From: Planctomycetota bacterium
GTDB lineage: Bacteria; Planctomycetota; Phycisphaerae; Tepidisphaerales; Tepidisphaeraceae
Assembly: GCA_039182125.1 (NCBI GenBank)
Contig: JBCDCH010000029.1
Location: forward strand, 1-45,241
Length of the DNA: 45,241 nt
Direction of reading: 5' to 3'
Shown here: positions 2,950 through 44,209 of the stretch, one piece after another
Layout of the letters: each line of letters opens with the position of its first letter
Position numbering within the stretch: position 1 is the stretch's first letter
Made by a program: the position numbers and the translations under genes
The notes under the pieces: model-generated
What the model was told of the DNA's origin: nothing
Seen by the model: only the letters and a program-made list of their open reading frames with translations
The model's database searches: none

Positions 2950-4002
2950 TCACTGCACGATCACCACGTCCTCCGGGTCGAAACTCACCGCGACCTCGGC
3001 CGGGACTTCGAACACCGGCGGTGCGGCGATGACCTTCAAAGGTTCGCCGTCGATATCCAGAACGTGTTCGCTGGCTTCGCCGAGAAAGGTGTGCTCGGTC
3101 TCCTTGCCGACGACTCGGTTGCGGCGTGGGGGACGACCGGTGAGATCGAGCTGCATCTGTTCCGGCCGGATGCTGAGCGTCACCTCGCTGGGCAGGTTGT
3201 TTTCCAGGTGCCGGGCGACGAGTTCGCCGAACGGGGTTTGTAGGCGGACCTCCTCACCCTCGTGACCGAGTACCTTTCCGGGGATGAGATTGGTTTGCCC
3301 GATGAAGTCGGCGACGAACGCGGTGTGCGGCTTGTGGTAGAGCTCGCCGGGCGAACCGATCTGCATGAGGTGGCCGTCCTTGAGCACGGCGATCCGGTCG
3401 GCGACGCTCAGTGCTTCCTTCTGATCGTGCGTGACGTAGATCGTGGTAAAGCCGGCCTCCTTGCAAATTCGGCGAATCTCGCTGCGCATCTCGTGGCGGA
3501 GCTTGGCGTCGAGATTGGACAAAGGTTCGTCGAGCAACAGACATGCCGGCTTGACGGCCAAGGCACGGGCCAACGCGACCCGCTGCTGCTGGCCGCCCGA
3601 GAGTTGGTTGGGCTTGCGGTCGGCGTAGTCGGTCATCTGTACCATGGCCAACACCTCGTCGATCCGGGTGTCTTGTTCAGCCTTGCCGACGTCGCGGACG
3701 TTGAGTCCGAAACGGATGTTCTCCCGCACCGTCATGTGCGGCCAAAGCGCGTAACTCTGGAAGCACATCACCGCGTTGCGTTTCTCGGTCGAGAGCCCGG
3801 TGACGTCGTTGTCGTCGAACCAGAGCTTGCCGGCGGTCGGCTCATGCAGGCCCGCGATGAGCCGCAGAAGCGTGGACTTGCCGCAACCGCTCGGCCCGAG
3901 GAGGAAGAACAGTTCGCCGGACTCGATGTCGATGGAGACATTGTCGAGGGCGACGGTGGAGCCGAAGCGTTTGGTGACGTTTTCGAGACGGACGCGAGTC
4001 AT
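2950..4002 (-). CDS. ABC transporter ATP-binding protein, PotA/FbpC type with TOBE domain
   Basis: A 350-residue ATPase of the importer class that energises uptake of iron(III), polyamines or similar. Walker A is GPSGCGKST, the Q-loop follows at CFQSYALWPHM, the signature is LSGGQQQRVALARAL, Walker B is CLLLDEPLSNLDAKL, and the H-loop is VTHDQKEAL. The C-terminal 110 residues form a TOBE-like region. I start it at MTRVRLENV (4002) because the 13 codons upstream (to 4041) encode an arginine-rich stretch unlike the family. It heads the run with the DUF4328 and binding-protein genes and is divergent from the aquaporin gene, with 77 bp between them. Confidence 0.88.
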   Translation of the reverse strand: MTRVRLENVTKRFGSTVALDNVSIDIESGELFFLLGPSGCGKSTLLRLIAGLHEPTAGKLWFDDNDVTGLSTEKRNAVMCFQSYALWPHMTVRENIRFGLNVRDVGKAEQDTRIDEVLAMVQMTDYADRKPNQLSGGQQQRVALARALAVKPACLLLDEPLSNLDAKLRHEMRSEIRRICKEAGFTTIYVTHDQKEALSVADRIAVLKDGHLMQIGSPGELYHKPHTAFVADFIGQTNLIPGKVLGHEGEEVRLQTPFGELVARHLENNLPSEVTLSIRPEQMQLDLTGRPPRRNRVVGKETEHTFLGEASEHVLDIDGEPLKVIAAPPVFEVPAEVAVSFDPEDVVIVQ

Positions 4003-26809: not shown

Positions 26810-29800
26810 ATGGAACTGAGCAAGAGCTACGACGCCGCGGCGACCGAGTCGGCCGTTGCACGGGTCTGGAACGAGGAGAACTGCTTCCACGCGGAGCCGG
26901 ACCCGAGCCGGGAGTCGTTCGTCGTGGTCATCCCGCCGCCGAACGTCACGGCGGCGCTGCACCTCGGGCACGCGCTCAACAACACGATCCAGGACATCCT
27001 CGTCCGCCGGGCGCGCATGCGGGGGCTCAACGCCGTCTGGCTCCCCGGCACCGACCACGCCGGCATCGCCACGCAGTCCGTCGTCGAGAAGCGCGTCCTC
27101 GCCGAGGAAGGCAAGCGTCGCACCGACTTCGAACGTGACGAGTTCGTCGCCAAGATCCAGGCGTGGAAGGACGAGTACGAGCAAACCATCCTCGGCCAGC
27201 TCAAGGCCATGGGCTGCAGCTGCGACTTCGACCGCACCGCGTTCACGATGGACGAGCAGCGGGCAAAGGCGGTCCGCGAAGCGTTCTTCCGGCTGTTCAA
27301 GGACGGCCTGATCTACCGCGGCAAACGGCTCGTCAATTGGGACCCCGTCACCCAAACGGCGCTGGCCGACGACGAGGTCGAGATGGAGGACATCGACGGC
27401 AGCTTCTGGTACCTGAAGTACCCCCTCGTCGATTCAGACGAGACGGTGACCGTCGCCACCACCCGCCCTGAAACCATGCTCGGCGACACTGCCGTTGCCG
27501 TGAACCCGAAGGACGAGAAGCGCGCCCACCTGATCGGCCGCAAAGTCCGCCTGCCGATCGTCGATCGCGAGATCCCGATCGTCGGCGACGAGTATGTCGT
27601 CATCCCCGACCCCGAAAGCAGCGACCCCAAAGCCAAGTACGCCAGCGGCTTCCTGAAAGTCACCCCCGCCCACGACCCCAACGACTGGGACATCGGCCAG
27701 CGGCACGACCTCGACGTCATCAACATCATGGCCCCCGACGCGTCGATCTCCGACGCCCACGGCTGGACGCCCGAAACCGACGCCGCGAAGGCGTTCGTCG
27801 GCAAGAGCCGCGAGGACGCCCGCACTGCCGTCGTCGAGTGGTTCAAGGACAACGGCCTGCTCGCCGAGGTCCGCCCTTACTCCCACGCCGTCGGCCACAG
27901 CTACCGCAGCCACGTCCCCGTCGAGCCGTACCTGAGCGACCAGTGGTACGTCGCCATGCAAAAGCCCATCGGCGGCGAGTCGGAAGGCAACGTGGAAGGC
28001 ACCGACATTCCGAAGAACAGCCTTGCGGGTTACGCATTGACGGCGTTGAGCGGCGACCAAAGGGAGCTTCCCCCCGAAGCTCCCTTCGGTCGCCGCTCAA
28101 CCAACCAACTGAGCTTCATCCCTGACCGCTACGCCAAGACCTACCACGCCTGGCACGCCAACCTCCGCGACTGGTGCATCAGCCGACAGCTCTGGTGGGG
28201 ACATCGGATTCCGGTGTGGACATTTGCTCTTGAACTAAGTGGAATCGATGGCGTTCATACCGCCGCGGGAATCAAGGAGGGAAGATACAGAGCGTTCGAG
28301 CGAGCAAAGGTCCGTCTCGAGGAACTCGCAGCAGCAGAAGGGCAACCTGGTTGCTTTGTTTTCGACTTCAACTTTCTGGGCGCGAAGATTCGCGTTACCC
28401 CGCGAAACTCCGAAGCGATCGGTATCTTGCAACGGTTCATTGCCTACAAGCGGTCATTTGCTGCGCAGGAGGTGGGCAAGCGAACGCAGTACGCCGAACA
28501 CGACGCTGACAATCGGCCGATTTACCATAACACGCATGTCAGGGAGACAGCGGCGGAAGCATTACTTGCTCTGCACAGCTTTGACACGATCGACCCCGAC
28601 GTCCTCGACACCTGGTTCTCCTCCGCCCTCTGGCCGATCTCGACGCTTGGCTGGCCGGACGATACCGCCGAGCTGAAGGCGTGGAACCCCACCACCGTCC
28701 TCTGCACCGCGCGTGAGATCATCACGCTTTGGGTCGGGCGGATGGTCATGTTCAACCGCTACTTCCGTGGCGGTGACCTCCCGTTCAATGACGTGTTCAT
28801 CCACGCGATGATCCAGGACGGGCACGGGCAGAAGATGTCGAAAAGCCTTGGCAATGGCGTCGATCCACTCGACATCATCCATTCGCATGGGGCCGACGCG
28901 ATGCGTTTCACGCTCTGCCAGATGACCACGCACACGCAGGACGTCCGCATGCCGGTGGACATGGTCGACCCGCACACGGGCGAGACGTTCGAGCCAAAGA
29001 CAATCACGAACAAGGCCGGCTTCACCGTCGCCGCGCCGATTCAGGAACACGGTGGCAAAAAGATGGTCAGCAGCTACGGCCTCGCGTCCGGCGAGGCGTC
29101 GCCGACCGACGACATGCCGCTGGCCCGCAATACCTCCAGCAAGTTCGACCTCGGCCGGAACTTCTGCAATAAGCTGTGGAACGCCTCGCGCTTCGTCATC
29201 GGCAACCTCGACGGTGACGCATCGGTCGGTGAGCTCTCCGCCGTCGATCGCTGGATCCTCTCGCGACTTGCCAAGACCATCGACGCGGTCAACGACGCCG
29301 CCGAGAACTACCGCTTCGACCGCTACGCGACGGCGATCTACGACTTCGTCTGGCGCGACTACTGCGACTGGTACATCGAGGCGGCGAAGCCGGCGCTGCG
29401 TGACGAAGCGACCGCGGCGACGACGCGAGCCGTCCTTTCGACATGCCTCGACGCGGCGTTGCGGCTGCTCAGCCCGATCACGCCGTTCGTTACCGAGAAG
29501 CTTTGGTGGGCGCTTAACGATGTCGCCCCGTCACGCGGCATCCCCGGCATGTTCGACCTGCCGCCGAGCGAGCGCTGCATGCTCGCGGCCTGGCCAACCG
29601 GCAACACGGACGCCATCGACGAGGAAGCGGAGGCGACCATCGCGACGCTACAGGAACTCGCCACCGCCATCCGCACGGTCCGTAATGAAAACAACGCCGA
29701 TCCGCGCAAGAAGTATCCCGTGACCATCGCCGGTGCGTCCGACGCGGTGCAAGCCAACGCGTCCGTGATCGAGCTTTGGGCGACTTGCACGGTGAACTTC

Positions 29801-30037
29801 GGTAACGCCCCCGCCGACGCGGCCAAGACCACCGCGGCCGGCTGCGAGGTGTATGTCGAGGGCGTCATCGACAAAGCCGCCGGCGCGAAACGCAAGGCCG
29901 AACTCGAAAGGAAGATCAAGGCGATGCAAGGCAGGTTGGCGAACAAGGGCTACACCGACAAAGCCCCGGCCCACCTCGTCCAACAGACCCGCGACGAACT
30001 CGCCGCCGCCGAAGCGGAGCTTGCGGCGCTCTCGTAA
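26810..30037 (+). CDS. valS: Valyl-tRNA synthetase with two unusual in-frame insertions
   Basis: 1075 residues, against roughly 880-950 usually. Class I motifs are HLGH (51-54, after PPPNVTAAL) and KMSKS (about 675-679). The editing domain includes TTRPETMLGDTAVAVNP and DWCISRQLWWGHRIPVW; LDTWFSSALWPISTLGWP marks the core after it, and a C-terminal coiled-coil arm ends the protein. Residues about 412-431 are encoded by a 57-bp palindrome. Residues about 472-592, where the short metal-binding segment normally lies, are replaced by about 120 unrecognised residues of lower-GC DNA. The frame open upstream to 25628 is antisense to the ankyrin gene; I start at MELSKSYDAA. Confidence 0.93.
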   Translation: MELSKSYDAAATESAVARVWNEENCFHAEPDPSRESFVVVIPPPNVTAALHLGHALNNTIQDILVRRARMRGLNAVWLPGTDHAGIATQSVVEKRVLAEEGKRRTDFERDEFVAKIQAWKDEYEQTILGQLKAMGCSCDFDRTAFTMDEQRAKAVREAFFRLFKDGLIYRGKRLVNWDPVTQTALADDEVEMEDIDGSFWYLKYPLVDSDETVTVATTRPETMLGDTAVAVNPKDEKRAHLIGRKVRLPIVDREIPIVGDEYVVIPDPESSDPKAKYASGFLKVTPAHDPNDWDIGQRHDLDVINIMAPDASISDAHGWTPETDAAKAFVGKSREDARTAVVEWFKDNGLLAEVRPYSHAVGHSYRSHVPVEPYLSDQWYVAMQKPIGGESEGNVEGTDIPKNSLAGYALTALSGDQRELPPEAPFGRRSTNQLSFIPDRYAKTYHAWHANLRDWCISRQLWWGHRIPVWTFALELSGIDGVHTAAGIKEGRYRAFERAKVRLEELAAAEGQPGCFVFDFNFLGAKIRVTPRNSEAIGILQRFIAYKRSFAAQEVGKRTQYAEHDADNRPIYHNTHVRETAAEALLALHSFDTIDPDVLDTWFSSALWPISTLGWPDDTAELKAWNPTTVLCTAREIITLWVGRMVMFNRYFRGGDLPFNDVFIHAMIQDGHGQKMSKSLGNGVDPLDIIHSHGADAMRFTLCQMTTHTQDVRMPVDMVDPHTGETFEPKTITNKAGFTVAAPIQEHGGKKMVSSYGLASGEASPTDDMPLARNTSSKFDLGRNFCNKLWNASRFVIGNLDGDASVGELSAVDRWILSRLAKTIDAVNDAAENYRFDRYATAIYDFVWRDYCDWYIEAAKPALRDEATAATTRAVLSTCLDAALRLLSPITPFVTEKLWWALNDVAPSRGIPGMFDLPPSERCMLAAWPTGNTDAIDEEAEATIATLQELATAIRTVRNENNADPRKKYPVTIAGASDAVQANASVIELWATCTVNFGNAPADAAKTTAAGCEVYVEGVIDKAAGAKRKAELERKIKAMQGRLANKGYTDKAPAHLVQQTRDELAAAEAELAALS
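28045..28101 (+). repeat. 57-bp palindromic element inside valS, in frame
   Basis: Two 26-bp arms (28045-28070 and 28076-28101) pair with one mismatch around a CCCCC loop. The left arm is GTTGAGCGGCGACCAAAGGG followed by AGCTTC. The 57-bp length is exactly 19 codons, and no stop is introduced. It lies in a variable loop between conserved blocks of the synthetase. I see no second copy in this window. Confidence 0.9.
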
Positions 30038-42830: not shown

Positions 42831-42837
42831 CCCCCGC

Positions 42838-42928
42838 GTCATCCTGAGTGCAGTCGAAGGACTTCTTCGTGTCCGTCACCGAGTCTGTCACGAAAACGAG
42901 GAGATCCTTCGACTGCGCTCAGGATGAC
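42838..42928. repeat. Inverted-repeat element, family A copy 2
   Basis: Two 24-bp arms (42838-42861 and 42905-42928) are inverted repeats with one mismatch; the left arm begins GTCATCCTGAGTGCAGTCGA. The 43-bp spacer contains a smaller inverted repeat, TTCGTG (42866-42871) with CACGAA (42889-42894). It lies 7 bp after the helicase stop and ends 24 bp before the cellulase ATG. Confidence 0.9.
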
Positions 42929-42952
42929 TCGTTTGCGGTTATCCTCACAAGC

Positions 42953-44059: not shown

Positions 44060-44086
44060 ACCGTCGGCAAACAACCCTCCCCGAAA

Positions 44087-44152
44087 GCCCACGGCTTCAG
44101 CCGTGGGTCTGCCTGTGGTCACGAACGCCGACCCACGGCTGAAGCCGTGGGC
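44087..44152. repeat. Paired REP-like palindromes
   Basis: Two 23-bp arms (44087-44109 and 44130-44152) are perfect inverted repeats of one another, and each contains a hairpin of its own (core CCCACGGCTTCAGCCGTGGG and its complement). A 20-bp spacer separates them. The sequence type resembles REP elements mobilised by IS200/IS605-like REP-associated transposases. It lies in the 150-bp gap between the cellulase and asd genes. Confidence 0.9.
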
Positions 44153-44209
44153 GTTCCCTGCCAAAGCAGCGCACACTCATTCGGCCCGACCGCGCTACAC
44201 TGCCGACCC

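Follow-up and report, generated by a model that had tools for sequence, protein, structure and literature searches.

An in-frame palindrome in the valyl-tRNA synthetase gene of a Phycisphaerae bacterium, probably one copy of a dispersed repeat

How does a nearly perfect palindrome come to be translated within an essential enzyme? The window analysed here, a stretch of 45,241 nucleotides from a planctomycete genome of the class Phycisphaerae, raises this question because its valS gene is read through such a palindrome. Most known cases of palindromes that code in frame come from Rickettsia or are tagged REPs.

The palindrome and its site in the protein

An earlier note, made from the letters alone, had described two 26-bp arms with one mismatch around a 5-base loop, 57 bp in all and in frame in valS, and this description holds at 28045-28101 (Table 1). 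The arms are 96% complementary and, with up to three mismatches allowed, this pair is the sole occurrence of the arm in the window (0.00 expected in shuffled sequences). The palindrome folds at -31.3 kcal/mol as single-stranded DNA (z=-9.8) and at -50.9 kcal/mol as RNA (z=-10.6), and shuffles never folded as well in either form. The ORF is unbroken across all ValRS domains (Pfam PF00133, PF08264 and PF10458; E=1.3e-169 against PDB 1gax), the inserted peptide standing between LAGYALTAL and NQLSFIPDRY.

Table 1. Coordinates of valS and of the parts of its palindrome in the window
Feature	Position	Strand	Basis
valS (valyl-tRNA synthetase, 1075 aa), host of the insertion	26810..30037	+	ORF and start, Pfam, PDB 1gax
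Left arm of the palindrome, GTTGAGCGGCGACCAAAGGGAGCTTC	28045..28070	+	same arm at ~20 other places in the genome
Loop of the palindrome, 5 nt, CCCCC	28071..28075	.	
Right arm of the palindrome, GAAGCTCCCTTCGGTCGCCGCTCAAC	28076..28101	+	
Codons of the inserted peptide, LSGDQRELPPEAPFGRRST, residues 413-431	28046..28102	+	translation; same frame in four other genes; short linker RERG in G011
AACCAA (N Q), codons joining the palindrome to the conserved LSFIPDRY	28103..28108	+	alignments; linker of just 4-5 codons in relatives

An AlphaFold model of the protein (10-sequence alignment) had a pLDDT below 50 around the insert and gave no structural evidence there, so the site was mapped through the alignment to 1gax instead, which places it in Thermus ValRS at a short turn around residues 373-376. 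When valS was aligned with its relatives, as the note had proposed, the segment was missing from them and its flanks were continuous: a relative (G011) reads LTAL-RERG-LDF where this genome reads LTAL-(20 aa)-LSF, i.e. 4 codons against 20, and the linker of another (G033) is equally short. The net gain over G011 is 48 nt (16 codons) and not 57, implying that a few adjacent codons were also lost or changed. Since the closest relatives belong to other genera (54-64% ValRS identity), short-linker sites are seen at the protein level only and the junction bases cannot be fixed.

Some other features of the window may be recorded. A second ValRS insert of ~125 aa lies 3' of WWGHRIPVW (28217-28594); its GC content is 0.50-0.60 against 0.63-0.70 in the surroundings, it has no Pfam match, and the length of this region varies strongly across relatives (22 aa in G011). 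Two further imperfect palindromes, of different sequence and both apparently intergenic, lie at 42835-42931 (CATCCTGAG..CGAAGGA) and at 44083-44156 (CCCACGGCTTCAGCCGTGGG), the latter just 5' of an aspartate-semialdehyde dehydrogenase-like gene.

Copies across the genome and the genes they enter

The earlier note had predicted copies elsewhere, in genes and between them, and the same genome indeed has about 12 full palindromes together with about 8 single-arm copies; these counts, obtained by searching, are minimum values. The outcome that would have refuted the note, a single-copy palindrome shared by all relatives, was not observed. Besides valS, full palindromes lie on C23, C4 (two), C40, C5, C3, C25, C20, C39 and C67, with weaker ones on C8 and C69; single arms lie on C10, C27, C81, C89, C96, C112 and other contigs, and C27 and C87 each have half a palindrome at one end. 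A match on C44 (79%, E=0.17) was left out of the count, and a control search of the genome with the pattern written backwards gave 0 matches. The consensus of nine copies is CGTTGAGCGGCGACC-(3-4 nt)-GGGAGCTT, a loop of 5-50 nt and then the inverse, most copies measuring about 53-65 bp and one, with a long loop, ~100 bp. The two arms of one copy match each other better than arms dealt among copies, if modestly, and covariation between arms is just slightly above that of shuffles, which with nine copies lends weak support. When 84,980 species genomes, this one left out, were scanned for the exact arm, none matched, so that this precise form seems restricted to the present lineage. In one copy (L125 2967-3017, G000:C57) the arms are everted, right then left and a few bases apart, unlike the others.

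These copies bear directly on where the valS palindrome came from. Perfect short inverted repeats are what template switching produces, and single arms exist, which would suit a quasi-palindrome made locally in valS by template switching or inverted duplication and never mobile. But the same arm stands at ~20 unlinked loci and nothing alike is found in the valS of relatives; the dispersed copies already refute a local origin of the sequence, and we consider this explanation extremely improbable. An artefact of assembly or binning seems scarcely credible either. The genome is a draft (4.13 Mb, 131 contigs, 2.46% contamination) and four copies lie at or near contig ends, which would speak for such an artefact, but the valS copy sits deep within its contig (C29) and its ORF is intact, four further copies within genes also preserve the frame, and independent genomes show the same thing, one of them (G013) being a single contig. 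Very likely, this Phycisphaerae genome harbours a dispersed, non-autonomous palindromic element, of which the 57 bp in valS represent one copy. Its distribution suggests that the element is, or has been, mobile, and, single-arm copies being numerous, it could be the arm and not the palindrome that moves. Comparison by eye of ten aligned junctions revealed no target-site duplication.

At least four further in-gene copies share the frame used in valS (LSGDxRE...): those of a copper-type P-ATPase, a MatE-like flippase, the tau part of dnaX and, as one arm, purH. The reading frame runs unbroken through the insert in valS, the P-ATPase, the flippase and dnaX-tau. With inserts in square brackets, the P-ATPase reads DKTGTLTAGKPAVTDVS[LSGDRRELSAEAPFGRRST]EDLLQLAAS, the flippase (Pfam MatE just below cut-off) QVEP[LSGDRREPLEESSRRSPID]GET, and the AICARFT domain of PurH CGVGIAP[LSGDQREL]FAAF; the kinds of gene rest on Pfam for valS, the P-ATPase and purH and were read from the sequence for the others. 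The linkers are again shorter in relatives: ~7-10 residues in most of them against 20 here for the P-ATPase (in G003 and G011 the linkers are longer and unrelated), and ~15 codons between the flanking matches in G004 and G006 against about 84 or more here for the flippase. In another frame the arm supplies a TGA, which is the stop of lepA (C10) and of an SDR-like gene (C4), and which also ends a radical-SAM gene (C69, a weak copy) and the purH N-domain (C87). Other copies lie just 5' of ddl (C5) and of a gene on C112.

Two of these genes carry additional features. In dnaX (L114 ~2990-3102, G000:C39:17138-17243) an A10 slippery run is present, the short form ending in KKKVSA and the -1 frame leading into the tau extension; the palindrome begins ~17 nt 3' of this run and could affect frameshifting. 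In the flippase gene (L111, G000:C3, minus strand) the valS-type palindrome is directly followed, in the same loop, by another inverted repeat, from a different family and with 34-nt arms (GPGIRSAHPSASPG...PKAERSEASG).

In purH, which is a single ORF of 530-606 aa in most relatives, one copy probably splits the gene into two ORFs. The interior of a palindrome forms the start of C87 and the end of C27, and we infer that the two contigs join here. On C87 the PurH N-domain terminates at the TGA of the palindrome, a stop that does not depend on the length of the loop; AICARFT is on C27, where an ATG follows the palindrome closely and in a different frame. A second, stand-alone PurH N-domain, 57% identical, is found on C64 (L292 ~1058-1703) and is either a paralogue or part of a contaminating contig.

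Palindromes in other Phycisphaerae

An inverted-repeat scan of the valS ORFs of relatives, in which codon-shuffled controls gave 0, found strong inverted repeats in the very same loop in G019, G010, G015 and G002, which represent four further genera of the family, as in the present genome, all with different sequences. Five of the six strong valS palindromes fall in ~6.5% of the gene length (binomial p ~7e-6, for a set defined after looking). The loop palindromes of G002, G010, G015 and G019 each match many other places in their own genome, and as they are mutually unrelated, several independent insertions are a simpler reading of these sequences than one ancient event. The clustering is as compatible with tolerance, other sites being lethal, as with a preference for this target. 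Strong palindromes also occur elsewhere in valS in other Phycisphaerae genomes (L049 in G013, L213 and L196), and PurH of G015 has an in-frame palindrome too (CGMGFQPMIHGLEARAT).

A functional RNA hairpin (an attenuator, a processing or a frameshift element) kept in valS by selection would account for the great stability of the fold as RNA and for the position of the dnaX copy so close to the slippery run. However, the hairpin lies in the middle of the gene, it is missing from the valS of relatives, unrelated palindromes take its place elsewhere, and Rfam holds no family for it (best score 20.8 bits against a cut-off of 98, a chance miRNA-like match); such a role is very improbable.

Covariance-model matches in relatives were rejected as members of the same family, being either a sister palindrome (CGAGCCGCGACCGTNAGGGAGCGG and its inverse) or other hairpins. 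The sister palindrome has GAGC-GCGACC...GGGAGC in common with the valS family, likewise occurs as inverted pairs and single arms, and has one in-frame copy, in a peptidase U32-like ORF of G109; it differs in the bases at the ends of its arms and in reaching several hundred arms per genome (71, 466 and 360 in three genomes), some in tandem direct arrays. The occurrence of its arms as pairs, singles and direct arrays suggests that the arm may be the basic unit.

Known repeats, mode of spread and consequences

RPEs are elements of 100-150 bp of the Rickettsiales (PMC3767692) that enter ORFs with the frame kept (PMC3767692; PMC10969869). The earlier note had likened the valS palindrome to them, and the likeness stands for behaviour: as with RPEs and the WPEs of Wolbachia, copies are dispersed, genic and intergenic, lie in frame in housekeeping genes including those of tRNA synthetases, and are translated. 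It does not extend to membership, as the valS family is short (55-65 bp), GC-rich and planctomycete, features that set it apart from the RPE descriptions, and the nearest named relatives of this ValRS are Phycisphaerae MAGs, outside the Rickettsiales. MITEs are similarly non-autonomous, dispersed and hairpin-forming and can fuse to ORFs (e.g. QMITE2 of Coxiella, PMC10969869), but for the valS family no target-site duplication was seen and, among the arms found in this fragmented assembly, no matching autonomous element.

Tagged REPs too are short dispersed palindromes, some of them within ORFs, and their ends provide stops. The palindrome could be an ordinary REP of the GTAG/CGTC type, mobilised by a RAYT and happening to sit in a gene. 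The genome does have two Y1_Tnp genes, one of them flanked by palindromes that end in GTTTAGCGG, identical at 8 of 9 positions to the GTTGAGCGG end of the valS palindrome, and the valS palindromes of G002 and G013 have a GTAG start and arm-internal hairpins, like tagged REPs. However, neither tag stands at the foot of the hairpin in the nine aligned copies of the present family (consensus end CGTTGAGC / GCTCAACG), inspection revealed no hairpin within the arm, the hairpin spans the whole 55-65 bp where a REP unit has 20-40 nt, and the stop supplied is TGA and not TAG. No valS-type palindrome lies within ~2.5 kb of either Y1_Tnp locus, and among the arms found in this fragmented assembly no pair flanks a transposase. 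We therefore regard an ordinary REP as possible but unlikely. The RAYT-like Y1_Tnp gene on C28 (L130 1992-2766) is flanked by another palindrome family, with a GCGACGAAGTCGC core, found in about ten dispersed places; a link of the valS family to this RAYT was rejected. By the features tested, the valS family behaves like RPEs and intragenic REPs and is a member of neither. The earlier note knew of no such repeat in planctomycetes, and we likewise found no description of this family in the literature; still, tagged REPs have been reported in Planctomycetes, and REPs within ORFs, tRNA synthetase genes among them, and giving stops to flanking genes with their ends, in other bacteria (PMC3733652, Di Nocera et al. 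2013); repeats of this kind were thus already known.

We propose that the dispersed element would move most likely as a folded single-stranded hairpin, served in trans by an HUH (RAYT-like) or other transposase of the host. One copy would have landed in a solvent-exposed loop of ValRS, flanked on one side by the helix that follows the editing domain and on the other by the strand leading to RDWCISRQ. Two of the three frames of the element are open and the third starts with TGA; selection would have retained only insertions with a frame-preserving length, an open frame and a tolerated site; the element would then be translated as a hydrophilic linker or, in its TGA frame, terminate the gene. 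Copies may eventually decay to single arms.

To the earlier note this study adds a set of in-frame copies, the probable split of purH and the recurrent use of one ValRS loop. A bolder interpretation, which we consider rather unlikely as a whole, would be that palindromic selfish repeats regularly supply protein sequence and gene structure in this planctomycete family, that the ValRS loop is truly a recurrent landing site for several unrelated families and not merely a tolerated one, and that one copy cut the bifunctional purH into two ORFs, the element giving the stop, with a start codon a few bases after. Hotspots have been discussed as a possibility where different RPE families lie close together in one gene (PMC3767692, PMC10969869), and the present data bear on the question, raised for RPEs, of whether same-site insertions reflect one ancient event or a hotspot (PMC3767692). 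Here an untagged family enters coding sequence in a Phycisphaerae genome, and unrelated families share one loop of an essential enzyme across several genera: at this ValRS loop, selfish DNA would repeatedly become protein sequence.
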